Assembly (NCBI GenBank): GCA_023974075.1
Contig: CM043803.1
Location: 5,854,282-5,918,281 of the forward strand
Length of the DNA: 64,000 nt
Source: Chaenocephalus aceratus
Lineage: Eukaryota > Chordata > Actinopteri > Perciformes > Channichthyidae
Direction of reading: 5' to 3'
The notes under the pieces are model-generated. The model was not told where the DNA came from, made no database searches, and worked only from the letters and a program-made list of their open reading frames with translations. Each line of letters starts with the position of its first letter. Position 1 is the first letter of the stretch. Made by a program: the position numbers and the translations under genes. Positions 504-57,652 of this stretch are shown in pieces.

Positions 504-1853
504 CAGGGGTCACCAACCTTTTTCAGGGTGAGGGCTACTTTCAAAAAATAAAACAAGTCGTGAGCTACTTTTACTCCTCTTTTTTTTGCAGTGTATATAT
601 TTAGCACATTTTAACATTATTATATGCTGACCTTTAACCTTTGTGTGCTGTTTGGGTCTGTGGGACCCGTTTTCAGTGTTTACTAAAAGAAAATGTATGC
701 AATTTAATTATTTTAACCTACTTTATTTTGGGGTGGACGGGCCTCACCTCCTCTAGGGGGGTCCGGACCTCTCCTCCTCTAGGGGGTTCCGGGGGCATGC
801 TCCCCCGGGAAGATTTTTTTTTTTAAATGTTGAAGTGAAATGCATCAATCTGGTGCACTTTGAGCACAACATGAATTTATGGATACAGCTCTCAACACTC
901 AGATGAAAGGGAGCTGTATACTTTTCAATAATCCAAACATCTTTAGAATATGATCACAACCAATAACAAATCATTTAAACTTGTTTATTCTTATCTTATG
1001 TTACCTAGTTAGCATTCTTTCTTTTTATTTATGCATATTTTACTAATCACTCCCCTTTTACTGTACTATAGTACACATTGGAATGATTTCTTACTTTATA
1101 TTAAATAGATAAAGGTGTGCTCTCTCGCGCTCTCTCTCTCTCTCTCTCTCCCTCCCTAGCTCTCTCTCTCGCTCACAGAGGCTGTGTGCTCCTCCGATGA
1201 CGGCCTGCGTTCAAAAATAATAATAAACATATTTGTAAAGTGGGGGGACAAACGGGATAGCCCCACCTAGTGTCAGCAGAAAGTATTAAAAATAATGATT
1301 ACAACAAAATGCAAAAAATAAATTAAAAAATATATAAAATATATTTTAAGATCATGTTTAATCATCTGATTCGTCTGTACATTGCTGTTTTAGTATGTGT
1401 TCTTCTAATTAGTGTCTACAGCAGGGGTCGGCAACAGGCGGACCGCGGTCCGGATGCGGACCCAGACGCCGACATATACGGACCCGGAGCTATAATCAAT
1501 ACATTAATAGGGGATTTTTTGGCGCCTCCCGCTTTTTTAACGCTGATTTGGGTGACTTGTGTAATTCGTGGAGAACCGAAGAGTTTTCGTTTTGGGGGTG
1601 GGGGGGAGGGAGTCAGTCCGACAGACGGACAACTTCTCACTTCAAAAAAGAAGAAGAAATCTAGACCGCAAAAATAATTAAACAAGCGAGTACCTGTTTT
1701 TCCTGGCCACGGACAGGTTCATGAACACAACACGAGCGTAAAGGCCCTGACACACCAACCCGATTTCGGGAGTCAGAGGCCGTCAGAGGCTGTCGGGCAT
1801 TCGCGGCGCCGTAGTCAGGTTGGTGTGTCCCGCACCGTCGACCGTGACACGCC

Positions 1854-1937
1854 TTATTTGGACTGCCAGACCCGATGCATGGCCGATTCAACATGTTGAA
1901 TCGGCCATGCATCGGGTCTGGCAGTCGGACCAAATAA
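1854..1937. repeat. Perfect spacer-less palindrome (66 bp core)
   Basis: Positions 1861-1893 and 1894-1926 are exact reverse complements with no spacer, centred on ACATGT. After a 4-base GGAC interruption on the right (1927-1930) the complementarity resumes (TTATTTG against CAAATAA). It lies inside the PIF/Harbinger MITE and could extrude a cruciform or form a long RNA hairpin. Confidence 0.95.
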
Positions 1938-2055
1938 TCACTCTGATTGGCTGTTCAGCTAGCAAATCAGTGCATGAGAAGCGAAGCGGAAGTGAGGGAC
2001 GTAAACAAACGATTTAAGAAGGCACACACAGACTGCTATTCATTTTCATCTCATC

Positions 2056-2184
2056 ATGGCGATCTGGAATGATGCAAACGAAGACCTGCTCATCACCTTG
2101 ATCCAGGAGAGGCCAGCTCTGTATGATATTACGGAGAAAAGATACTCTTCTTCTTCTCTGTCTTCCGGTTGTTGCCTCTTTTGA
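2056..2184 (+). pseudogene. MADF-domain N-terminal fragment of a Harbinger DNA-binding protein
   Basis: A 42-codon frame begins MAIWNDANEDLLITLIQERP and continues through ALYD. The LI-x2-I-x-ERP-x-LYD pattern is the start of a MADF (Myb/SANT-like) domain, which PIF/Harbinger elements encode as their second protein beside the DDE nuclease. The frame then runs into serine-rich sequence and stops, so this is a captured or residual 5' exon piece and not a working gene. Assignment rests on the motif and on the TAA-flanked Harbinger ends around it. Confidence 0.6.
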
Positions 2185-3622
2185 ATGACGAATACACACT
2201 ACCGCCGCCTGCTGGTAAGGAGAGTTATTGCCACTCACGCACTGAAGTCGGTGCGGTGTGTTCCCGTGCGACACATGGCCAAAACGCAGGAGAACACGGC
2301 CAGGCAACAGCCGACTTCAGCGTCGGCTAGTCCTCTGGTGACTGCTTGGTGTGTCAGGGCCTTAACGTGTCTTCACGTGGTATATGTCTCGTCTGAAAGG
2401 AGTGCTGCGCTCCAGCCCTTAAAATATTGCAATACCCATAAGCAGAGCTCCCATAAGGAGCCGTACACATACAGCAGTGTTTGCGTGGCTGTGTCTTTAG
2501 TTGTAAGCACAGTGGCGATCTGTTGTTATTAGCATCTGGTTAGCTAGCTATGCTAACGAATTTAAAGAGCTTTTCTACAACCAGGTGGAAGAGAGCTCTC
2601 TCCTGAGAGCCTCAAATAACCTCAGCTCAGTGAGGTTAAGGCACACCTTGATATGATCAATATAGTTATTAATGAGACTAAATGAAAAACAGGTATAAAA
2701 TACTATATGACAGCAACAAAAAAGCTGTTAAAAATAACAAGAATAGAGTTTAAAAGGGGAGTGATTTGTAAAATATCCAAAAAGGAAAATATGCTACAGT
2801 TCTGTTTCATATGGGTGTTGAGAGATGTCTCCATAGATCTCTCAGTGTTGCTCTCAAAGTGTACCAGATTGATGCTTTTAACTTCAATATTTAAACATTA
2901 CACATATCCACAGTATTTAAGTAATGTTAATTGACAATAAATATTATTGTTTTTTAATTGTACTTTCTTTATTTGATTGGCAGTCAGTTGTTGATTACAT
3001 ACAGACGTTGATAAAGCTACAGGTCACTTCAATATATATCACACTAATTAATGAAGCAACTTAGACATTTTGATGTTCCGGACCTTTGCATGGGGAGATT
3101 TTCTCTAACTGGACCTCGTTGAATTTTAGTTGAAGACCTCTGGTCTACAGTGTGTGCCTATTGAGCTGTTTAGAGCCATGTGGGACAAAACCTGATCCTG
3201 CCCCTCCCTCTGTCTAAGTCAGGGGTTGGCAACCCGCGGACCACGGGCCGCATGCGGCCCTTTAAGCCCTCTGCTCTGGCTCCCTTGAGTTTAGACAAAA
3301 ATAAGAAGGAAATAAAATAAAAGTATTTGTAGGACTATTTATATTTTGTTGCATGGTTGAAAATGTTTCGTATGTTGTATTTTGAGGTGATACTGTGACA
3401 CATAAATAAAAAACAAAACGGTTTTAATTAGGTCAACTAAAATATGCGTCACATCCTGCTCCGGTCCCGCGCGAGCGCCTTTTCTTGGAGGCAAATAACC
3501 CCCGGCTCGATGAGCGAACTATGGATAAATCAAAGAAAAGTACCGGAGGAACACAGGATTTAATTCTGCGTGGACAGAGTTATCTGCTTTCACAGCAAAC
3601 GATGCTGGTTTACCGGTATGTC

Positions 3623-4663
3623 CAGTGGCGACTGGTCATTAGGGGCAGGTGGGGCACAGCCCCACCTAGTGTCAGCAGAAAGTATTAAAATAATGATTAC
3701 AACAAAATGCAAAAAATAAATTAAAAAATATATAAAATATATTTTAAGATCATGTTTAATCATCTGATTCGTCTGTACATTGCTGTTTTAGTGTCTACAG
3801 TGTGTGCCTATTGAGCCATGTGGGACAAAACCTGATCCTGCCCCTCCCTCTGACTGTCTAAGTGAACGGTGACTGCAAAAACTACACTGCGCATGCTCAG
3901 AGTATTTTCCTATTTAATGTGTGTGGCAAAAAATAATGACCATAGGGGCAAAGTGCTGCCATCCCCACCATACGTCATCTCACATAATTCAGAGCTGATT
4001 GGCTGTAAATACGTGTGCCGCGAAAAGTGTGGTGTGTGAAGAGGAGGAGAGAGAGCTGCAGTGAGGCGTCCTAAAACCAGGAAGTAAGCTGCGCATGGCT
4101 TCCCTCCACAAAAAAGCAACGAGATTTCTCCATAGGATTTTAGAAAATAGCTCAAAATAAGATCTGTGGGAAACGTAGCTGTTAGATAAATGTACGTTTT
4201 GTTCAGCTGGATAATATCCACATGTCTACCCTACTTTTATCATTTTCGAATCAAAAATCTATTGATTAGATTAGATTTATGATAGACTTTTGAAACTACA
4301 AGAAGATAAGGAGGACTTTTACAAAAAAGAGATTTTTGTCCAGAAGGATAGTCAAATGGACTTAATCTTCAAGTCAAGACTGCAATTTTATTGAAAATGG
4401 GATCTTACTAAGAGAGAACAATTCAATATTTAAATGATAAAATTACATTTTTTTGGATATCCTTCTGTTGAACTGTCTGTTTAATTGAAGCATCAGACAA
4501 AAAAAGCTTTTGAAAATAATATTATCTTTTGATTTAATATATTTGTAAACCTGAAGAGTCAATGCCAGTGCCTCACCAGCCATGAACCTCTCTGCAGAAG
4601 CTTATATATAGACATCTAAGTTTTTTGTGCCCCACCACTTTTGTACATATAGAAACGCCACTG
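3623..4663 (+). mobile_element. hAT-like element D copy 2 (intact reference copy)
   Basis: Ends are CAGTGGCGACTGG and AACGCCACTG, with the 8-bp duplication GGTATGTC at 3615-3622 and 4664-4671. At 1041 bp it is uninterrupted and so gives the empty sites for the two insertions into D1. No intact ORF is present; it is non-autonomous. Confidence 0.9.
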
Positions 4664-4754
4664 GGTATGTCTGATATGTAGAGAGAAGTTGTCAACGGTG
4701 GTGCAGCCTTTACGAGGGAGAGGAAGACAGCTGACATCGTCAGTCATAATTCAA

Positions 4755-6268
4755 TGGGGTATGTAATTTATTTCAGAAAACACTTTGTTATAATCCATGG
4801 AATGCTCTTAACGTCCCGATAGCAATGAATATATGAAATGCTTTGACAATAAATCCATACAAAAATTAATCTGTGGAAGCCGTAGCGCTGTAAAAAGCAC
4901 GACCAATCATCTGAGCCGGCTAAAGTAACTGGATGGCCTACCTGCCTGTCAGCCTCCATCTGTGCACAAACTTATCTCGTGCCCTCATTGGTCATGTGCA
5001 CGTTCGTGTGTGTTGGAGGAGGGACTCTGTGAGAAAGTCTGAAGGAAGAGAGTAGGCTTGTTTGAGACAAGCAAGACCTGCGCAGACCTGCGCAATTGCG
5101 ATCAACGTCTTGCTGGTGCGTTGCATGATGGTTAGTCATTTTGTCCGACTTGCTCTGGAGGCTCGCCCACATGAGACTTTGAAATCTCGCGGGACAAAGA
5201 CGCCCGCAGCCTTGAGAGCGAGGCGAGGCGAGTTGGCGCACTTGCTCTCCACGAGATGCGGAAGCGAAATGCTTGATGGGAAACGGCTCGCTGGTATCTC
5301 GAGCTGAGCGCTCATTGGTGGTTTTTACCACGTGCTGCTGATGAAACTCTCCCATTGGCTGGCAAAAGTTTGTTGTTGTTTTGTGTCAGTTTTATTACGT
5401 CGCCACATCCATTCCCATTTTTCATCATTGTTCCACAATGTTTATCATCATGAAATTAATATCTATATATTTTATACTATACTGCTTACCGTTTTCATAC
5501 TTTATATATCTTAGCATATTCATACACACTGTTCATACTGCTCACAGGCTGATATCTAGTGTATTCATACCCCACTGTTTATTCATCATTTAATTCATTC
5601 TATATGTTATTCTGTAGATTGTGTACATTACTTTCCACTTCTCTGCTTGTTGCACCTGGTTAGAAGCTAAACTGCATTTCGTTGTCTCAGTACCTGTAAT
5701 ATGTGCAATAACAATAACGTTTCTCTTTAAGTTAAACCAAATCATTAAAATAAAATATATTGTAATGTAATGATTTGGTTTAACCTTATTTATTGAATAC
5801 ATCATTTAAAATGGCAAGATGAAATCAAATTACATCCATGTTGTACACATCATAAAGCTTAAAGTGGCAGCTAAAGAATTAACACAGCAGCAGGTCTGTT
5901 CAAGTCATGCTCATTAAGCTTCATGTGTGCGGATCTGAAGGGACTGATCATTTGTAGCCTGTCCACCTATCAGTTTTGCAAACATTAAGAGGGAGGAGCA
6001 TTTCTATTACATCCACTTCATCTGCAACGAAAAACGCCAACGCAATTTCCGCCATTGCAAACCCAGCCAGTCAAGCCGACTTCGAGTCCGAGCTGTCCGA
6101 CTTAAGACGAGCTTTTTGACACCTCCCCCGGCTGAGATCGGCTACTCTCGTCTACTTTCGAGGCGAGCCGCAATGTGTCTCAAACAAGCCTGTTGTGTAT
6201 TTTCCGGTTGTGTATTTTCAAATTCTAGCGCACTCGAGCTGGTTTCTCCATTCTTACCTACCCTACCT
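4755..6268 (-). mobile_element. TTAA-flanked MITE (P family) within A1
   Basis: The right end (CTACCCTACCT followed by TTAA) and the left end (TGGGGTATG, preceded by TCAA, a mutated TTAA) match the family seen at 53744-55981. The same P insertion sits at the same internal place in A2, so family A already carried it before A1 and A2 separated. It is enlarged here by the element at about 5055-6190. Confidence 0.7.
5055..6190. mobile_element. Element Q copy 1, ends TTGTTTGAGACA / TGTCTCAAACAA
   Basis: Inverted termini GGCTTGTTTGAGACA and TGTCTCAAACAAGCC enclose sequence that recurs at about 19430-20475 in opposite orientation. The P2 copy lacks it, so it inserted into P. The target duplication is not clean, so superfamily is unresolved. 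The middle (about 5510-5760) resembles a LINE 3' end (GCATTTCGTTGTCTCAGTAC). No ORF over about 130 codons. Confidence 0.55.
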
Positions 6269-6621
6269 TTAACTCTTTTTAGGGTGCAGCTATATGTTTT
6301 ATTTATTTCAAAGTGGGCCCATTTTAATAATATTTTTTTTCCCTTCAAATGTGCAGAGGATTCCCCAAGTGCTGTGTTTAATTTATTTTAAAGTAGGCCA
6401 GTGTATTATTTTTAATTCTGCTTATAAGAGTTCTTTGTTTCTTATTAGAGGTTAACAGTTTTATATCATGTAATAAATAGCATAATAAATGCAAAAAACT
6501 GTAGTTTTTGTCTGATATAACAATAAAAAACTATGAAATATGTTTTGCGGCTCCAGACAAAAAAATGTTTTGGAAAAAGAAGCGAAATGGCTCTTTTAGT
6601 CAAAAAGGTTGCAGACCCCTG

Positions 6622-7180
6622 CCCTAACCCATAGATCCGTGGGTGAATAATGTCAATCACCACAATAGATACGTTATTTTCCCCTGTGCAATTCTCCATT
6701 TACTCAACAATAACACATAATTATCCTTGTGTTTATTTATCTGTTTGATTAATAAACACAAGTTGGAGTCCGTCAGGACCGAGGGTCGGAGCAGCTCATT
6801 TGCTTTACAGAATATTACACCCGGAAGTAAGTATTCTCTCCGCTTCGCTTGACAAACCCCGTGATAGTCCTCAAGCTCTGTGATTGGAGAGTGTGCAGAG
6901 CGTCGAACAGCACTTGAAATGGGATGGAACCACGGCAGACTGTCCAAAACTGGATTTGAACGGGTCCACCGTGTCCCCCCCACCCCAACTACACATGCTG
7001 GCTATTGTGTGTTTCGCAACATGTTCTCTATGGCACGTCTCTACTGGGAATTGTAGTTTTAAAAGACGTTTTCGTATTTCCCATAATAAGAAGTTGCCAG
7101 TATTAAACTGTGTACATCCCTGGAGGTTTAGGGGATAGGAAACACTCAAATGTAAAACATATAATTAATACCTAATTAAT
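6622..7180. other. Non-coding stretch of the composite interior
   Basis: I see no gene or recognisable repeat. It begins with CCCTAACC, which would be the original right-hand target duplication of A1 at the donor locus. ORFs here lack coding character. Confidence 0.5.
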
Positions 7181-7189
7181 ACCCATCCT

Positions 7190-7537
7190 ACCTAACTGAC
7201 CTCCTCCAGACACACTCCCACTCGCTCCCTCCGCTCTGCTACTGCCAACCTCCTGTCCCTCCCCACCCAGACCAACCTCAAGTCCTGGGGCGGCAGAGCC
7301 TTCTCCGTTGCTGCACCCACCCTCTTGAACTCACTACCCCAATCCATCAGAGATTCAAAACATCACTCAAAACCCACCTGTTCAACACTGCATTCAACCA
7401 CTGACCCCCCCCCCCCCCCCTATGTTCTGTTTTGTTTATCTCTTTTTGTATTTTTCTTTGTTTTGTTTTTTTGTTGTTTTTTTCATTCTCGGTCAAACCG
7501 TCTTTGAGTTTCCTGAAAAGCGCTATACAAGTCGCAT

Positions 7538-7597
<60 letters not shown>

Positions 7598-7600
7598 GTA
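7190..7600 (+). mobile_element. 5'-truncated L2-clade LINE, 3' end with (ATT)n tail
   Basis: The frame from about 7230 reads like the extreme C-terminus of an L2-clade ORF2 (LKSWGGRAFSVAAPTL, then NSLPQSIRDSK) and decays after that. A short 3' UTR ending AAAGCGCTATACAAG and an (ATT)n array at about 7540-7596 follow, the usual 3' organisation of L2 elements. A C-run near 7407-7420 breaks the downstream sequence. Confidence 0.75.
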
Positions 7601-7738
7601 TTATGGCGAGTTTGTGTTTCCATAGCAACAGCACTAGGAAAAGCGCCATACAAATTAAATGTATTATTTTTTTTTAAATTATTATTGCAAGTTTGTGTTT
7701 CCATGGCAACAGCAGAAGTCTAAACCAAACTATTTCAG

Positions 7739-7846
7739 TGACATCACTTATGACATCCTCACACACTGAAGCGATGAGATCATTGGCTTTGATGAGCGTT
7801 CCGTCATAGAACATCAGAGACATCTGTGATGTCACGATGATGTCAC
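7739..7846 (+). promoter_or_regulatory. Cluster of CRE/ATF-like half sites upstream of the coiled-coil gene
   Basis: TGACATCA (about 7739), TGACATCC (7752) and two TGATGTCAC copies in direct repeat (about 7827-7845) lie 190-300 bp before the ATG at 8033. CREB/ATF factors bind TGACGTCA-like octamers, so this may be the promoter. Inference from motif density only. A GTAAGT at 7911 could also be a 5' UTR splice donor. Confidence 0.35.
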
Positions 7847-8032
7847 AGGAGTCTGAAGGAAGATTGCAAGGGCATTCAAGTGCATTCACTCGTCACTCTT
7901 CACTCCAGAGCTGTAAGTGGTGAGACGCATTCAGACGACCTTCACAACCTTCACAGTCTTCAGACAGAACACTTCTTCCAAAGAGAAATACATTATTCTA
8001 CCTTCGCACAACACACGTCTACAGACGGTGCC

Positions 8033-9601
8033 ATGGATAGAAGAAGCCACCAGAACTACCCGAGGGGAAACCCGAGGCCATTCGACCATGGAGCAGAAGC
8101 CGATCGAGCTTACAAGCAGATCCACTGCAGAAATGGCCAGATAAACGGCCTGGAGGAGTATCATGGGGCATTTCAGGAGGAGAGGACGACATTTTGCCAC
8201 AGTATGCGCAAACAAAAAGACAAGATCAAACGTCTTGAGGAGCTCCTGAAGTACAGGGACTCAGGGCTCCACAAAGAGAACACAAAGCTGGTTGACACCA
8301 TCATGGAGCATGAGGCAGAAATCTCCCGTCTGAATGGCAATATTGAAAATGCAGAATGCCAACACAAGAGGCAGATGGACCAAATTGTGGCAAGGCATGA
8401 GGCAGAGAAAGGAAATGTCTCAGACGAGAAGGCCCAGGCGACATCTGACAGCGTGAACAATGATGTTCCCCTGCAGTGTGACCCAGAGATCATCAAACTG
8501 AGGATGAGGAAAGGGGAGACCATGAAAGAGCTGATGAGACAAGGGGAAGAACTCCTTGAGTGTGTGACCATCTTGGAGGATAGAAACAGCGATCTGGAGG
8601 AACAGATGAGAGAGCAGGAGGAGAAGTTCTCCAAAGACCTGGCCGATAAGAGTCACACCTGGGAGACTGAGAAGCAACAGATGGTGACAACACTAAATGA
8701 GTTGACTCAGGAAAAGAACAACATGACCAAGGAAACCCTGACCTTGGAGTCTGAGTTCAAACAGGTGGAGGCTAAATTAAAGCAGGTGGAAAAGGAGAAA
8801 GATCGCCTGGCCGAGAATAACCTGAGCTGTGAGACGGACGTCAAACAGCTGAAAGAACAGGTGAGAGAGCAGGAGGAGAAGTTCTCCAAAGACCTGGCCG
8901 ATAAGAGTCACACCTGGGAGACTGAGAAGCAACAGATGGTGACAACACTAGATGAGTTGACTCAGGAAAAGAACAACATGACCAAGGAAACCCTGACCTT
9001 GGAGTCTGAGTTCAAACAGGTGGAGGCTAAATTAAAGCAGGTGGAAAAGGAGAAAGATCGCCTGGCCGAGAATAACCTGAGCTGTGAGACGGACATCAAA
9101 CAGCTGAAAGAACAGCTGAGAGAGCAGGAGGAGAAGTTCTCCAAAGACCTGGCCCTGAACCAGGAGAGCTGGGAGTCCAAGGTTAATTTGGTGGAGACCA
9201 AATTAAACGAGGTAACTCAGAAGAAGGACGACCTGGTCCAGAAACACCAGAGCATGGAGACCAAGCTTCACCTGACGGAGACACAACTGGAACAGGTGGA
9301 GGAGCAGAGGGACGACCTGGCTCAGAGAAGACTGAGCTGGGCAACGACTGAGAAAAAGATGGAGGAGGAAAATAAACTTCTGGAAGACCTCTGTCTTCAC
9401 ATGAAGAATAAGAGCAGAGGTTTCTTCTCTCGCAGGAGGGGGGACACTGAGGATAGAGACGTTGCCTTGCAGAAAATGATAAGCAAGATGCAAGAGAAGG
9501 AGATGAGGAAGAAAGCCAAAGACGCGAGAAACACCTCCTCAGAGAAGATGGAGAAGATGGAGGAAGCTTCTGGTGATTCAGCTCCAGCTGGACAACAGTA
9601 A
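8033..9601 (+). CDS. Intronless coiled-coil protein with a duplicated 85-residue block
   Basis: A 522-codon frame begins at GCCATGG, a strong Kozak context; the frame is open further upstream to an ATG at 7880, but that region looks like UTR. I do not recognise the product. Residues 1-60 are polar (MDRRSHQNYPRGNPRPFDHG). From about residue 60 to 470 it is charged heptad-like coiled coil (many E, K, Q, L). The C-terminus (about 465-522) is basic then Ser/Glu-rich, with FFSRRRGD. Residues 193-277 and 278-362 are an in-frame tandem duplication. There are no introns, signal peptide or membrane segments. A polyA signal follows at 9736. The gene lies in the composite hAT interior. It may be one of the multi-copy intronless coiled-coil genes of fish; myosin-tail or golgin similarity would be compositional only. 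Confidence 0.7.
   Translation: MDRRSHQNYPRGNPRPFDHGAEADRAYKQIHCRNGQINGLEEYHGAFQEERTTFCHSMRKQKDKIKRLEELLKYRDSGLHKENTKLVDTIMEHEAEISRLNGNIENAECQHKRQMDQIVARHEAEKGNVSDEKAQATSDSVNNDVPLQCDPEIIKLRMRKGETMKELMRQGEELLECVTILEDRNSDLEEQMREQEEKFSKDLADKSHTWETEKQQMVTTLNELTQEKNNMTKETLTLESEFKQVEAKLKQVEKEKDRLAENNLSCETDVKQLKEQVREQEEKFSKDLADKSHTWETEKQQMVTTLDELTQEKNNMTKETLTLESEFKQVEAKLKQVEKEKDRLAENNLSCETDIKQLKEQLREQEEKFSKDLALNQESWESKVNLVETKLNEVTQKKDDLVQKHQSMETKLHLTETQLEQVEEQRDDLAQRRLSWATTEKKMEEENKLLEDLCLHMKNKSRGFFSRRRGDTEDRDVALQKMISKMQEKEMRKKAKDARNTSSEKMEKMEEASGDSAPAGQQ
8609..9130 (+). repeat. 255-bp in-frame tandem duplication within the coiled-coil gene
   Basis: Unit 1 (8609-8863) and unit 2 (8864-9118) differ at three bases by my reading (Asn/Asp, Val/Ile, Val/Leu), all changing the amino acid. 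A third unit begins at 9119 and diverges after about four residues past KFSKDLA. The 85-residue period keeps the frame. Confidence 0.92.
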
Positions 9602-9735
9602 CTCCCTCCCTCCATTTCCCTCACCCCCTCCCTCCTTCACTTTTTGCTCAGATAGGGTTTTCTCCTGGAGCTCAGGTTTTTTGAGGTGAAGCCGAAAATG
9701 TAATTGTATTGACTGAAACATGGTGTCACTTTTAA

Positions 9736-9741
9736 AATAAA
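9736..9741 (+). terminator. PolyA signal AATAAA of the coiled-coil gene
   Basis: AATAAA lies about 135 bases after the TAA stop and is followed within 40 bases by a TGTATG/GTGATGTG stretch. This fits a short 3' UTR of a Pol II gene and argues the ORF is a transcription unit. Confidence 0.55.
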
Positions 9742-9759
9742 AACAAAAAATGTATGCCT

Positions 9760-10389
9760 TATGTGATGTGATTTTAATTCAACAACACAAACATTTAAAA
9801 CCTCACTTTTATCTGCAAAACTTTGGTAAAATCCTGCAAAAAAAATTGTAGGAACATTTCTCAACCCATTTATGGACACAAGTTAATCAACTCCCATTTA
9901 AAATCACCTAATTATGGTATGGATAGGGGTTAAGGTTAGGGTTAGTACAAATTGTACAGCATATCTAAAAAGAAGTCACTAAAGCTGTCAGAAAATGTAA
10001 CTGAGTAAAAAGTAAAATATTTTCCTGTGAGATTAAGGGATTTTGAAAAGTATAAAGATGCATGGACATTTTTCTTTTCTTTTCTTTTATACCTAAGTAT
10101 ATCACTTAGGGAACACTGGGACATGATATTATAATTGATAGCCAAGGCTCTAGATTAAAAAGTGTTTATAATACAATACAATACATTATTGTATGGCGTA
10201 ACGGCTGTGAGATTGTGGGTTTAATCTCTGAGTTTCTACATTACGGCTACACAGTTTATCATAGACAATTAGGACTATTTCTGATTTCCATAAACTCTTT
10301 GGGGGACATGCCATACACGTTACATAACTTGGACTTCATCCTGATTGACACCAAACGTAAAGACTTCGTAAAATCCCTAGGAGGAGTTT
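9760..10389. other. AT-rich non-coding stretch
   Basis: I see no gene, RNA or clear repeat here. Short ORFs lack coding character. Confidence 0.4.
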
Positions 10390-10712
10390 GTTGTTAAAGT
10401 ACGGTGCACTATTCTGTCCCCAGAGTCAGAACTAAACATGGAGGAGTTCAGTTATTATGCTCCAAATATCTGGAACAAACTCCCAGACACCTGCAGGTCC
10501 CCTGCAACTCTGACTACTTTTAAATCCAGCCTGAAGACTTTTCTTTTTGCCGCTGCTTATAATTGAACTATTTATCTCTTACACTGCACTGTAACTTTTA
10601 TTCATGTATTTTATATCTGTGTTATTCTATATTAGCTCGTTAATGTTTTTGTAAAGCACTTTGAATTGCCTTGTGTTGAAAGGTGCTATATAAATAAACT
10701 TGCCTTGCTCGA
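10390..10712 (+). mobile_element. L2-clade LINE 3' fragment
   Basis: TCTGTCCCCAGAGTCAGAAC through CTTTTCTTTTTGCCGCTGC and AAGGTGCTATATAAATAAAC match the 3' part of the LINE at 56465-57652 (same block near 57110-57490). Only the last 50-60 codons and the 3' UTR are present, and the frame is shifted. Confidence 0.8.
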
Positions 10713-10892
10713 AAAACACGTCACAGTCCACGAAAAAATTCACATATTATGGGAAATGAAAAAAATTACTACTTAAAAATACACAAGTACTATCTTCAAT
10801 GGTGCACACCTGCATCGAGTTCTGAACAACAACAAAAACAGAATTTTTAATCATACATTGTTTTGAACTTACCTTCAAACTCACCTCTACAG

Positions 10893-10960
10893 TCGATAGA
10901 TAGATAGATAGTTAGGTAGGTACTTTATTAATCCCAAATTGGGAAATAATTTTTGTTGCA
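10893..10960 (-). mobile_element. LINE 3' tail with (TCTA)n
   Basis: On the minus strand TTTCCCAATTTGGGATTAAT AAAGTACC leads into a TCTA-rich tail (10893-10925 on the plus strand). This is a typical 3' end of a fish non-LTR element. Only the tail is present; the clade cannot be decided. Confidence 0.5.
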
Positions 10961-11082
10961 GGACCAGTGTGCTCAACATTAAAATGCAAATACTTAAAAC
11001 CTGTTAAGCCCCAAGGTCAAATTCACGACACTGTGTCTCAGGGGATCTTAATATTTAAGAACCTATGAATGTGTTATACCAG

Positions 11083-11561
11083 CAGTGATGTACCTGAACG
11101 CGTTCAATGAACGATCGTTCATGAACGCGTTCCTATTTTGGGCGAACGTGAACTGAACGTACTGTATTTCCGCTAGATGAACGTAATTGAGAACGCGTTC
11201 ATTCTCAGCGCTGTATAACGGCGTTCAAAAGTGCGTTCATTCTCAGCACTGTATTATAACGGCGTTCAAATGTGTGCCAGATTTCATATGCCTTTCAGCC
11301 GAAAACCCAGTTAAAACACACAGTAAACAGGCTTCAAAATAATGCGGAAAACCACCCAATCTGGCAACAGCAAGCTGCCTGTGATGCGTACGCGCCTGTC
11401 ACCCCTGGCTGTCGCACTAAAATATAAATATACTAAATATATCAGACTCCTCACAACAAACAATGTGGAACCGCGGAACCGGCGAGCATTGAATGAATGA
11501 ATTAGTATGGACGAAGCCGAGAGCAGCTGGAGCAGCACTCGCTCAGAGTGAGACTCTACGG
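11083..11561. mobile_element. Half of an hAT-like element (F), cut at the B1 boundary
   Basis: It starts CAGTGATGTACCTGAACG, followed by several GAACGCGTTC / GCGTTCATTCTCAGC repeats that I associate with an hAT family in fish. It ends exactly at CTCTACGG, the octamer left of element B1, and no continuation of F appears after B1. That is what is expected if B1 had inserted into F and then left with the composite, leaving the right half of F at the donor locus. Confidence 0.5.
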
Positions 11562-12503
11562 CAGGGGTGGGGAACCTCGGGCCTCCAGGCCGTATACGGC
11601 CCGCGAGACAATTTGGTACGGACCTCGAGGTAATTTATAAACACACGCAAAAAATAAAAAAATGAAAGAAATCTAGACCGCAAAAAAATTAAACAAGCGA
11701 GTGCCTGTTTTTCCTGGCCAAGGTCAGGGTCCTTGAACACAACACCAGCCTTAGGTGTCATCACGTGGTATATGTCTCGACTGACAGGGGTGCAGTTCTG
11801 ACGGAGAGCACCAGAAAGCCACTCCAGCACTTCAGAAATTGCAGTACCGATAAATCCATACATATGCCGCAGTTTCTGCGTGTCTGTGTCTTTAGTTGAA
11901 AGCCCAGTGGCGATCTGCTCATCTGTCATACTGATCAGACAGTCAATAACTGTGTTGTTATCATTAGCATCTGGTTAGCTAGCTATGCTAACGAATATAA
12001 GAAGCTTTTTCTACAACCAGTGAGGTAAAGGCACATCTTTATATTATCATTATAGTTATAAAAAAATAAGAGAATAAAGTAAACAGGTATAAAATACTAT
12101 ATGACAGTTATTAATAAAGAAGAATACAGTTTGAAAGGGGAGTGATTTGTCAAATATCCATAAATTAAAAGAAAATCTGCTTACAGTTCTGTTTCATATG
12201 GGTGTTGAGAGATGTATCCATAGATCTCCTAATGTTGCTCTCAAAGTGCACCAGATTGATGCTTTTAACTTCAACATTTACAAAAAAATCTCCCCAGGGG
12301 AGCACGCCAAACCCTGCACGTGCATGCATACGCGAGTCATGGTGAGATATCTGGATTAAGAGGTTGCTTTTTCTTTGCACAGAATGAAATGAATGGGCTG
12401 TGATTTTAGTTTTTTTAAGCAGAGGTCAATAACTTGTACGGCCCTCTGAGGATATTGTAAAAATTGAAATGGCCCTTGAGAGGAAAAAGGTTCCCCACCC
12501 CTG
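11562..12503 (+). mobile_element. hAT family B copy 1 (right end of the composite)
   Basis: Ends CAGGGGTGGGGAACCTCGGG and AAAGGTTCCCCACCCCTG match the clean copy B2 (21734-22748). Flanking octamers differ: CTCTACGG at left, GTCTAAGT at right. The interior has the GTTAGCTAGCTATGCTAACG block common to the B relatives. There is no transposase ORF. Confidence 0.85.
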
Positions 12504-13653
12504 GTCTAAGTGAACGGTGACTGCAAAAACTACACTGCGCATGCTCAGAGTATTTTCCTATTTAATGTGTGTGGCAAAAAATAAAGTGCTGCCATCCCCA
12601 CCATACGTCATCTCACATAATTCAGAGCTGATTGGCTGTCAGTACGTGTGCCGCGAAAAGTGTGGTGTGTGAAGAGGAGATGAGAGAGCTGCAGTGAGGC
12701 GTCCTAAAACCAGGAAGTAAGCTGCGCATGGCTTCCCTCGACAAAAAAGCAACGAGATTTCTCGATAGGATTTGAGAAAATAGCTAAAAATAAGATCTGT
12801 GGGAAACGTAGCTGTTAGATAAATGTACGTTTTGTTCACCCGGATAATATCCACATGTCTACCCTACTTTTATCATTTTCGAATCAAAAATCTATTGATT
12901 AGATTAGATTTATGATAGACTTTTGAAACTACAAGAAGATAAGGAGGACTTTTTGTCCAGAAGGATAGGCAAATGGACTTAATCTTCAAGTCAAGGTAAG
13001 ACTGCAATTTTATTGAAAATGGGATCTTACTAAGAGAGAACAATTCAATATTTAAATGATAAAATTACATTTTTGTGGGTATCCTTCTGTTGAACTGTCT
13101 GTTAAAATTAATCGAAGCATCAGACAAAAAAAGCTTTTGAAAATAATATTATATTTTGATTTAATATATTTGTAAACCTGAAGAGTCAGTGCCAGTGCCT
13201 CACCAGCCATGAACCTCTCTGCAGAAGCTTATATATAAACATCTGAGTTTTTTGTGCCCCACCACCTTTGTACATATAGAAACGCCACTGGTTGTGTAGA
13301 TTCTGCCAGAAGGAAAATCAGCGGAGAGGCCACATTGCTTTTCTTCCCGACTGCAACGCTGGTCCCGCAAATCAAGCAAGAACGTGATTGGTCGATATTC
13401 ATTGGGTGGGGGGAGGAGGGGTGTTAGATAGATATAGAGTTGTAGTATGTAGATAGAGTTCGCTATGATTTAGGTTTCCTTTATGCATAGGGTAGATTCT
13501 TTTAATTACATTTCCTTTTTTGTTTTGTGTATTTTATACATTTTGGATTTGCTTGGCGAGCTATTTTTAGAACATGCCCCGCGGGCGACTCACGTTGCCC
13601 CTGCGGGCGACTAAGTGCCCGCGGGCACCGTGTTGGCTGCCCCTGCTCTAGAA

Positions 13654-21733: not shown

Positions 21734-22748
21734 CAGGGGTGGGGAACCTCCGGCCCCCGGGCCGTATACGGCCCGCGAGACAATTTGGTACGGCCCTCGA
21801 GGTAATTTATAAACAAAGAAAATAAAATCTAGACCGCAAACAAATTAAACAAGCGAGTGCCTGTTTTTCCTGGCCAAGGTCAGGGTCCTTGAACACAACA
21901 CGAGCCTAACGTGTCATCACATGGTATATGTCTCCTCTGGGGTGCAGTTATGCCGGAGAGCACCGGAACGTCGCTCCGGGATTTCCAAAAATGTCAGTAC
22001 CCATAAGGAGCCGTACACATGCCGGAGTTGTTGCGTTGCTGTGTCTTTAGCTGAAAGCCCAGTGGCGATCTGCTCATCTGTCATACTGATCATACAGTCA
22101 ATGACTTTGTTGTTATTAGCATCTGGTTAGCTAGCTATGCTAACACATATGAGAAGCTTTTTCTACAACCAGTCAGGCACATCTTTATATGATCATTATA
22201 TAGTTATTTAAAAATAAGAGAATAAAGTAAACAGGTATAAATATTATATGACAGTAAAAAAAAGTTTTTATTAATAAACAAGAATACAGTTTGAAAGGGG
22301 AGTGATTTGTAAAATATCCATAAAGAAAAATAAAATCTTCTTACAGTTCTGTTTCATATGGATGTTGAGAGATGTATCCATAGATCTCCTAATGTTGCTC
22401 TCAAAGTGCACCAGATTGATGCTTTAAAAAAAAAATCTTTTCAGACCCCCCCACACTTAAATCATGTTCACATGGATAGGAAACTACATTTGCACACATG
22501 TTGTGTCCAATATCTTTCTGTTTTGGTGGTCATGCCACAACCGTGCACGTGCCGTGCATGCATGTGTGAGTCATGGTAAGATATCTGGATTAAGAGGTTA
22601 ATTTTTCTTTGCACAGCATGAAAGAAAGGCCAAATGAATGGGCTGTGATTTTAGTATTTTTAAGCAGAGGTCAATCATTTTTACGGCCCTCGGAGGAAGT
22701 TGGAAACATGTAAATGGCCCTTGAGAGGAAAAAGGTTCCCCACCCCTG
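21734..22748 (+). mobile_element. hAT family B copy 2 (clean insertion in the LINE)
   Basis: Ends CAGGGGTGGGGAACCTC and GGTTCCCCACCCCTG are flanked by the 8-bp duplication CCCTAGTA (21726-21733 and 22749-22756). The LINE reading continues across it. At 1015 bp it is non-autonomous. It is the control showing what a normal B insertion looks like beside the anomalous B1. Confidence 0.93.
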
Positions 22749-24134: not shown

Positions 24135-25292
24135 CAGGGGTCTGCAACCTTTTTGAACAAAAGAGCAATTTTGCTCCTTTTTCCCAAAAAAACTACAGTT
24201 TTTGCATTTATTAGGCTATTTATTACATGATATAAAACTGTTAACCTCTAATAAGAAACAAAGAACTCTTATAAGGAGAATTACAAATAATACACCGGCC
24301 TACTTTAAAATAAATTAAACACAGCACTTGGGGAGTTCTCTGCACATTTGAAGGAAAAAAAAATATTATTAAAATGGGCCCACTTTGAAATAAATGAAAC
24401 ATATAGCTGCACCCTAAAAAGAGTTAACGGTAGGGTAGGTAAGAATGGAGAAACCAGCTCGAGTGCGCTAGAATTTGAAAATACACAACCGGAAAAAATA
24501 TGCCTCTTCCTTCAGACTTCCTTACAGAGCCCCTCCTCCAACACACACGAATGCGCACATGACCAATGAGGGCACAAGATAAGTTTGTGCACAGATGGAA
24601 GGCTGACAGGCAGGTAGGCCATCCAGTTACTTTAGCCGGGCCGGCTCAGAAGATTGGTCGTGCTTTTTACGGCGCTACGGCTTCCAGAGATTAATTTTTT
24701 TATGTATTTATTGTCAAAGCATTTAATATATTAATTGCTATTGGGACGTTAAGAGCATTCCATGGAATATAACAAAAAAAAGTGTTTTCTGAAATAAATG
24801 ACATACCCCATTAAATTATGACTGAAGATCGTCAACTGTCTTCCTCCCCCTTGTTGTTCCTCGATACGTAAAGGCTGCACCACCGTTGACAACTTCTCTC
24901 TACATATCAAACATACCGGTAAACCAGCATCGATTGCTGTGAAAGCAGATAACTCTGTCCACACAGAATTAAATCCTGTGTTCCTCCGGTACTTTTCTTT
25001 GATTTATCCATAGCTCGCTCATCGAGCCGGGAGTCAGGTTATTCGCCTCCAAGAAAAGGCGCTCGCGCGGGACCGTAGCAGGATGTGACGCATATTTTAG
25101 TTGACCTAATTAAAACCGTTTTGTTTTTTATTTGTGTCACAGTATCACTTCAAAATACAAGATACGAAACATTTTCAACCATGCAACAAAATATAAATAG
25201 TCCTACAAATACTTTTATTTTCTTCTTATTTTTGTCTAAACTCAAGGGAGCCAGAGCAGAGGGTTTAAAGGGCCGCGGGTTGCCGACCCCTG
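24135..25292 (-). mobile_element. hAT family A copy 2 (clean insertion in the LINE)
   Basis: Ends CAGGGGTCTGCAACC and GGGTTGCCGACCCCTG are flanked by the duplication ATCTAGTG (24127-24134 and 25293-25300). The LINE frame is restored when the insert and one duplication are removed (SSIT-LDSKLECFSA). It carries a P-family MITE (24428-24810) at the same internal site as A1. Confidence 0.93.
24428..24810 (+). mobile_element. TTAA-flanked MITE (P family) in A2
   Basis: TTAA at 24424-24427 and 24811-24814 flanks ends CGGTAGGGTAGGTA and CATACCCCA. The interior (GCTCGAGTGCGCTAGAATTT, CAACACACACGAATGCGCAC) matches the P copies at 4755 and 53744. Confidence 0.85.
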
Positions 25293-56464: not shown

Positions 56465-57652
56465 ATTTCACCAGGAGACTATGCTCCAATTCAAACACTG
56501 AGTAAGTGCATTGAACAAATCAATGACTGGATGTGTCAGAACTTTCTCCAATTAAACAAAGATAAAACTGAGGTAATGGTTTTTGGAGCAAAGTCAGAAC
56601 CTATAAAAGTGAGCGCTGAGCTTCAGTCTGCAATGTTCAAAACAACAGATAAAGTCAGAAATCTAGGTGTAGTCATGGACTCTGACCTGAGTTTCAACAG
56701 TCACATTAAAACAGTTACTAAATCAGCCTACTATCACCTAAAGAATATATCTAGGATTAAAAGACTAATGTCACAGCAGGATTTGGAAAAACTTGTCCAT
56801 GCCTTTATCTTCAGTAGACTCGACTAATGCAATGGTGTCTTCACAGGTCTCACTAAAAAATCTATTAGAAAGCTGCAGCTGATTCAGAACGCCGCTGCTC
56901 GAGTCCTCACTAACACTAAGAAAGTGGATCACATCACTCCTGTTCTGAAGTCTTTACACTGGCTTCCTGTGTGTCAAAGAATAGATTTCAAAAATATTGC
57001 TGCTGGTTTATAAAGCACTGAATGGTTTAGGCCCAAAATACATTACTGACCTCCTGCTAAACTATGAACCATCCAGATCTCTCAGGTCTTCAGGGACTGG
57101 TCAGCTTTCTGTCCCCAGAATCAGAACTAAACATGGTAAAGCAGCGTTTAGTTATTATTATGTTCCAAATATCTGGAACAAACTCCCAGAAACCTGCAGG
57201 TCCGCTGCAACTCTTACTACTTCTAAATCCAGGCTGAAGACTTTTCTTTTTGTCGCTGCTTTTAATTGAACTATTCATATCTTAAACTGCACTGTAACTT
57301 TTATCCATGTACTTTTTCTTGTAATGTTTAATTGAACTATTCATATTTTAGACTGCACTGTAACTTTTATCCATGTATTTTTCCTTAATGTTTATTTTAT
57401 TAGCTTTTCTTTTTTAATGCTTAATGTCTTTCATTTTTTTTTGTAAAGCACTTTGAATTGCCTTGCGTTGAAAAGTGCTATATAAATAAACTTGCCTTGC
57501 CTTGCCTTGCCTTGCCTTGCCTTGCCTTGCCTTGCCTTGCCTTGCCTTGCCTTGCCTTGCCTTGCCTTGCCTTGCCTTGCCTTGCCTTGCCTTGCCTTGC
57601 CTTGCCTTGCCTTGCCTTGCCTTGCCTTGCCTTGCCTTGCCTTGCCTTGCCT
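56465..57652 (+). mobile_element. Young 5'-truncated L2-clade LINE with (CTTGC)n tail
   Basis: It encodes the C-terminal part of the RT ORF: NDWMCQNFLQLNKDKTEVMV, KVRNLGVVMDSDLSFNSHIK, then IQNAAARVLTNTKKVDHITP, LHWLPVCQRIDFK and the end LKTFLFVAAFN. Only two lesions are seen: a TAA in place of the expected Tyr codon at 56825-56827 (RLD-stop-CN) and a one-base A insertion near 56990. The 3' UTR ends AAAAGTGCTATATAAATAAA and a pentamer tail. Confidence 0.9.
57494..57652 (+). repeat. (CTTGC)n pentanucleotide array
   Basis: About 31 uninterrupted pentamers form the 3' tail of the LINE. The other copies here have only one to four units. Confidence 0.97.

Follow-up and report, generated by a model that had tools for sequence, protein, structure and literature searches.

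In this study, we analyzed a 64,000-nucleotide stretch of the genome of the channichthyid fish Chaenocephalus aceratus (assembly GCA_023974075.1, contig CM043803.1; C19:5854282-5918281 in our contig numbering; hereafter the window), in which two different short hAT-type elements, A (3220-6621) and B (11562-12503), enclose a single-exon coiled-coil gene (8033-9601). With a probability of roughly 84%, our results point to two layers of movement: a joint transposition that used the left end of A and the right end of B and carried the A-gene-B block into a copy of another element, D, inside a larger hAT-type unit, F (504-13645), followed by movement of F. In the proposed sequence of events, the gene would first have come to lie between two like-oriented insertions, A in a repeat H (target site duplication, TSD, CCCTAACC) and B in a repeat G (TSD CTCTACGG). 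One hAT transposase would then have acted on A's left tip and B's right tip as a pair (macrotransposition), and in a single step the block, probably about 7 kb long before later insertions, would have moved into D at GTCTAAGT and duplicated this site. With the recipient D sitting within F, the whole unit, written D[A-gene-B] in F, would subsequently have used its own tips to reach additional sites on the chromosomes, possibly taking the gene along.

First, the coordinates, tips and 8-bp flanks that an initial annotation of the window had assigned to A and B were all borne out by re-reading. Each element has both of its own tips, yet its 8-bp flanks are unequal, and only the outer pair matches (GTCTAAGT at 3212-3219 and 12504-12511), so that a single TSD is found at the outer ends and none around A or B individually. 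The annotation had also described the host D as continuous across the join, and this held: compared with the intact D located within A (3623-4663; TSD GGTATGTC), it showed 19 substitutions over 836 aligned positions and 55 gap columns, with a 4-bp gap directly to the left of the TSD GTCTAAGT. An enumeration of CAGGGGT starts (n=11) and ACCCCTG ends (n=7) over the window, with equal 8-bp flanks required, returned three pairs, namely the composite at 3220-12503 (GTCTAAGT), a second B at 21734-22748 that retains its own TSD (CCCTAGTA twice) and a second A at 24135-25292 that does the same (ATCTAGTG twice). F and a further element, C, escape this enumeration because their right tips read differently. 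Own TSDs are also kept by C (GTCTACAG twice) and by the D inside A (GGTATGTC twice). These controls within the window make the pattern of the first A and B stand out. The chance that two random 8-mers of the window are identical is 4.7e-5, or 1.8e-3 if both fit NNCTANNN; 1.1% of the 8-mers of the window fit it, and so do the inner flanks CCCTAACC (right of A) and CTCTACGG (left of B).

The two linked elements, in direct orientation, supply one left and one right end, and the terminal inverted repeats (TIRs) of these two ends differ at 2 of 15 positions. When 66 pairs of ends were compared beyond the TIR against shuffled sequences (A1 and B1 being the copies of the composite, A2 and B2 the second copies), left ends resembled each other (A1/B1, 3 of 300 shuffles; A1/B2, 0 of 300), as did right ends (A1/B1, 2 of 300). 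Thus, with like ends matching in some pairs, the left end of A and the right end of B look like a proper end pair. A, B, C and F all have 8-bp TSDs and short CAGGG-type TIRs, which we take to be of the hAT type. Miniature inverted-repeat transposable elements (MITEs) of the hAT superfamily are commonly non-autonomous, and A, B, C and F are taken as such here. No hAT transposase is encoded within F, where the coiled-coil gene and one antisense frame overlapping it account for all open reading frames of at least 150 aa.

Second, donor-type halves were present elsewhere in the same assembly (1.064 Gb in 3032 contigs), which was the genome searched. Among the best 40 of 2001 candidates scored for the join of A with CCCTAACC and H, seven matched fully: the window, C174, C24:14.53 Mb, two places on C7, C8:0.764 Mb and C24:19.99 Mb. 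At the last two of these, the left tip of A is preceded by CCCTAACC, as read directly, and the right CCCTAACC flank is deduced from matches of 98% and 97% across the join, respectively. The join of G and CTCTACGG with B was matched at all 40 places scored (the best of 1067 candidates; 93-100% identity, one match covering 3-181). On C10, B is followed by CTCTACGG, again read directly, and its left flank follows from a 96% match of the join. The inner flanks of the composite therefore look like halves of the earlier TSDs of A (two loci) and B (one locus), each with one flank read and the other deduced from the sequence match. In the window, the part of H that would have been the earlier target of A occupies 6622-6720 and may extend further right, and the part of G that would have been the earlier target of B occupies 11460-11561 and starts further left. 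Two other loci (L048 and L049) have B in G with an identical cut right end (AATGGCCC|ATTAACAT) and represent a separate, repeated form of B in G. Elsewhere, the similarity to H starts 3 to 24 bases ahead of the border of A (query 6540-6720 of the window). Other hAT tips appear to stand at the same CCCTAACC site in H, which suggests perhaps a second landing site.

Third, the gene is also found without any D at C7:13.13 Mb and C7:8.28 Mb, where it is preceded by A and followed by the same B. At C7:13.13 Mb both inner joins were read, and they are equal to those of the window. A lacks its left 268 bp on C7 and continues into sequence absent from the window, and the right tip of B is followed by CCCTAGTC and by other sequence that is likewise absent. 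Comparison of C7 and F to the right of B shows that the neighbour of B changes exactly at its right tip, which suggests that this tip served as a transposition end at C7 too and that the left partner was lost there. As A is cut short, the C7 gene loci were ruled out as the intact donor. In a third C7 gene copy (L040), the end of B is absent from the stretch read. For two gene copies on C22 and one on C11, no A was found upstream in three 500-bp stretches at the expected place; the C11 stretch contains a piece similar to E, an element that lies within A in the window (5055-6190; TIR GGCTTGTTTGAGACA, without equal 8-bp flanks).

Fourth, the enclosing unit F has the properties of a mobile element in its own right. 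This nested unit of 13,142 bp (tips CAGGGGTCACCAACC...GGCTGCCCCTG) encloses the host D, C, A, the gene and B, all on the plus strand. Its TSD, CTCTAGAA, occupies 496-503, where it directly precedes CAGGGGTCACCAACC, and 13646-13653, where it directly follows the CCCCTG tip. The host D lies in three pieces: the left one (1259-1421) lacks about the first 35 bp of D and is followed by C (1422-3142), which is related to B in its interior and is inserted in D with the TSD GTCTACAG; the second (3143-3219) ends in GTCTAAGT, and the right one (12504-13290) starts with it. Two further copies of F were found, on C24 (9,656 bp) and at C174:236149-250619 on the minus strand (14,471 bp), with homology spanning 496/497 to 13646/13650. 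The C24 copy has the same tips as the window copy and another perfect TSD (ATCTACAG twice); the C174 copy has intact tips and unmatched flanks (CTCTGGGG/CCTGGAGT). No similarity between different loci was found among the six 300-bp flanks, the sole similarity being 19 bp between the two flanks of the window copy. Two insertions with different perfect TSDs and dissimilar flanks mean that F travelled as one piece, either between C19 and C24 at the least or from a shared source to each of them.

A different interpretation, that the copies of F are segmental duplications and that the gene moved with segments of chromosomes, could draw on the C174 copy, which is without a matching TSD and has C at the same place as the window copy (C is absent from the C24 copy). 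It is already contradicted for the window and C24 by different perfect TSDs at identical tips and by the dissimilarity of the flanks over 300 bp, and we regard it as highly improbable overall. The outer flanks of the composite recur in the other copies of F, exactly on C24 and with one mismatch on C174 (GTCTAAAT/GTCTAAGT), and substitutions among the three copies amount to 0.5-2.7% over ten segments. Although the region is rich in repeats, recurrence of both joins (3219/3220 and 12503/12504) at three loci, in copies that have diverged to this extent, leaves a negligible chance that either is an assembly artefact, an outcome that would have undone the proposal of the initial annotation.

The gene itself is intact in two of the three F copies, those of the window and C174. 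In the C24 copy, its place is taken by 2.6 kb of other sequence (about 9080-11717 of the joined stretches L009-L011), part of which is 98.5% similar to an insert in the C174 copy. Other loci with the gene between the same A-left and B-right ends had been proposed as something to look for, and C174, with the same joins, is such a locus; the C24 copy is without the gene and the C7 loci have lost the left tip of A. The initial annotation had described the composite without the enclosing F. In this respect its account was not borne out as worded: the TSD of the locus is that at the borders of F, so the block likely arrived inside F. Most likely, the composite jump occurred in an ancestor of F, and F then brought the block to C19.

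The site GTCTAAGT in D was surveyed with the 101-bp join of D and A as bait; 25 of the best 40 of 1007 candidate places scored were examined, the window included, and with this bait the frequencies in the sample carry no meaning. The 25 junctions contained the A...B block (3), A alone (5), B in the same orientation (7, one of them seen at its left end only), B reversed (3), C (3), other inserts (3) and one ambiguous case. Insertions at GTCTAAGT were seen at 3212-3219/12504-12511 of the window and at loci L015, L016 and L018-L037. Among 20 D sites with a single insert, the flanks were exactly equal in nine and differed by one base in eight; the remaining three comprised a broken right flank (L021) and two cases of mis-set borders (L032 and L037), of which L037 proved equal after correction by eye. 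An empty D, which the initial annotation had proposed to look for, was found in L028. Thus, different hAT elements, in both orientations, have repeatedly inserted at GTCTAAGT in D.

This recurrence and several other observations weigh against the two-layer account. At a shared landing site, outer flanks should agree more often than chance alone would predict, so that their agreement is weaker evidence than was first claimed, and the outer TSD alone was dropped as proof of composite transposition. In the comparison of the 66 end pairs, a cross pair (right end of A2 with left end of B2) also reached 4 of 300 shuffles, and the pairs of left ends A2/B1 and A2/B2 and of right ends A1/B2 and A2/B2 remained below the listing level. 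Of four loci with B in G that were read at the right end, one has CTCTACGG, two have a cut tip and in one the end was not displayed. The search for a donor locus around the gene, proposed at the outset, yielded halves for both inner flanks and nowhere all four donor flanks together, A being cut short at C7. Both C7 loci share the sequence to the right of B and count as one case. With respect to F, the copy with the second perfect TSD (C24) is without the gene and the gene-bearing C174 copy has unmatched flanks, so that movement of the gene by F rests on the TSD of the window copy. The proportion of synonymous differences (pS) between the window and C174 genes, 3.4%, is higher than the divergence of most F segments, perhaps as a result of repeat misalignment or gene conversion. 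Finally, some comparisons discriminate little or point the other way. F, C7 and seven of nine copies of B in D, written D(B), share an identical final 40 bp of B; the reversed D(B) copies L034 and L035 differ from F at only 3-4 sites over the last 130 bp of B; and over the left 143 bp of A, copies residing in H differ from the F copies at 3-4 positions and those residing in D at 2-10, while a tree of whole A sequences (without H-resident copies) joins F with the D-resident copy L015 (support 100/99).

Some of these points bear on the possibility that the block arose by two unequal recombinations, one between a D(A) copy and the A beside the gene and the other between the B beside the gene and a D(B) copy, without any joint transposition. 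D(A) and D(B) are both recurrent and both have GTCTAAGT, so matching flanks would come free, and little distinguishes the copies over the left 143 bp of A or the final 40 bp of B; the left join alone is therefore compatible with recombination with a D(A) copy. The rest of B is more informative. Over its last 130 bp, the three F copies and two C7 copies show 0-1 differences, whereas the F copies and six same-orientation D(B) copies show 5-11 differences and 0-33 gap columns; over the last 60 bp, F and these six copies differ at 3-4 positions (up to five pairs at 4 in the comparison with C24). The reversed copies, of which L036 differs from F at 7-8 sites over 130 bp, put the tip of B beside the left part of D rather than the right and could not have given the observed join. 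Over the last 250 bp, F and the nine D(B) copies differ at 36-66 positions, with L034 and L035 highest, and because a deletion shifting the last 260 bp inflates the counts of these two, the shorter stretches were used. These sequence comparisons support the view that the right part of B in F belongs with the B beside the gene rather than with the six same-orientation D(B) copies, down to the last 40-60 bp or so. The result speaks against recombination, with the reservation that the final 40 bp are of little diagnostic value, and would confine the crossover to this short segment. On the left side, the D of L015, the nearest D(A) copy, is separated from the D of F in both D trees (left part, 83/84, bootstrap not settled; right part, 86/77), and descent of the join between D and A in F from L015 was rejected with moderate support. 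Moreover, two events would be needed, with both halves of D remaining collinear. We therefore consider recombination improbable, the likeliest of the alternatives all the same.

Gap filling, in which A and B were adjacent at GTCTAAGT in D and the gene was copied in when a break between the two was mended with an A- and B-flanked gene locus as template, is the main route described for single-copy Pack-TIR elements in animals (PMC8277862). It requires A and B next to each other in the same orientation in D, an arrangement that was seen at none of the 25 D junctions (one ambiguous, one seen at the left end only), and also a donor with both A and B; the inner joins at C7 are identical. Tip-exact joins further argue against gap filling or fork switching, and the donor was not seen whole. 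This route appears very unlikely. Returning to joint transposition within F, the initial idea that one transposition explains all four flanks is supported, and donor-type halves were found for it; it had to be modified in that the block lies inside F and that the match of GTCTAAGT is less decisive.

The coiled-coil gene encodes 522 aa in the window and 610 aa in the C174 unit. Its 85-aa repeats (8594-9358) number three in the window, two of them near-identical and one at 67% identity; the C174 gene has three near-identical units. The two genes differ at 10 synonymous and 5 nonsynonymous positions (S=298, N=1268), and at least 10 synonymous changes among 15 would be expected with P=7e-5 under equal rates. 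Thus, the gene looks constrained, and it is presumably expressed. A Pfam search of its product gave one match, to Sec10_N, below the cut-off of that family, and in a search for relatives on viral contigs 10 stretches fitted a pattern and none was confirmed. The nearest proteins came from Antarctic notothenioid fishes, the best from Pseudochaenichthys georgianus (92%), among 38 listed of 7992 candidates scored. The genome of C. aceratus has about ten close copies of the gene, that of the window included, and many distant ones (for example on C7, C11, C22, C44 and C1199), and many of these keep long open frames. In C. gunnari, C. esox and P. georgianus, family matches are located on several different large contigs.

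The window also contains POLR3E and CDR2, recognized from their reading frames, and a tandem repeat at 57431-57652 that reads RQGKA in one frame. We compared the location of these neighbours with that of the gene family in other species, with contigs of equal length in bp taken as the same contig and with annotation that may be incomplete. In Eleginops maclovinus, POLR3E and CDR2 are on a contig of 22,592,755 bp and the three listed family matches on contigs of 25,973,324 and 28,781,379 bp; in Dissostichus mawsoni, the neighbours are on a contig of 29,051,562 bp and the three listed family matches on contigs of 36,385,023 and 30,779,419 bp; and in Champsocephalus esox, the only family match listed on the contig of CDR2 (29,786,943 bp) is a 33% relative. 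Among the matches listed in the three species with both kinds of data, no close gene copy was located on the POLR3E/CDR2 contig, which lends slight support to the idea that the gene at the window locus is a derived insertion.

The arrangement resembles systems known from other organisms in part. In the Ac/Ds macrotransposons of maize (Huang and Dooner 2008, via PMC9910405), the movement likewise involves a linked pair of directly oriented elements from one superfamily, the outer left and right tips are used, the intervening DNA is carried and an 8-bp TSD is formed. Such macrotransposition can carry up to 100 kb (PMC3260210), and excision of a 28-kb macrotransposon left a modified 8-bp TSD (PMC9910405). 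Unlike the maize case, the fish composite has ends from two different non-autonomous families, carries an intact gene, lies inside a further mobile element and is known from genome sequence alone. Animal Pack-TIRs, including Drosophila Ssk-FB4, are TIR elements with a captured host gene and TSDs, the multicopy cases having distinct TSDs (PMC8277862); the fish unit, too, has a host gene inside a TIR element and related copies elsewhere. In 100 animal genomes, 370 Pack-TIRs were reported, 208 of them hAT; four (1.4%) were multicopy, and Ssk-FB4 was the coding case. The gene cargo of animal TIR elements is described there largely as fragments (PMC8277862). In contrast with these, the fish unit contains a whole gene, whose apparent way in was a two-ended composite that is itself nested in another element. 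AgaP2-P12MITE of Anopheles has TIRs of two different subfamilies, and macrotransposition was proposed for it in an animal (PMC1562414); unlike the fish composite, it concerns P elements and a MITE without a gene, and the passage describing it mentions no donor halves. The 'composite insertions' of coelacanth (PMC4255032), which are described as stacks of retroelements, were dropped as a precedent. Among the listed titles and abstract openings of open-licence papers, none named a gene-carrying macrotransposition in a vertebrate with hAT ends from two families. In maize, linked hAT ends are known to move jointly.

It is conceivable, and we offer it as a tentative suggestion, that GTCTAAGT in D collects hAT elements and so builds compounds, and that D[A-gene-B] in F may spread a functional, selected gene as part of the expansion of its family in Antarctic fishes. 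Within a single vertebrate genome, donor-type halves occur together with the composite and with an enclosing unit whose two insertions have different TSDs, and the gene at the centre is intact and looks constrained. This makes a testable case of whole-gene mobilization by cut-and-paste elements in vertebrates, in a lineage known for transposon expansion, several transposable element families having expanded in notothenioid genomes (PMC10256766).

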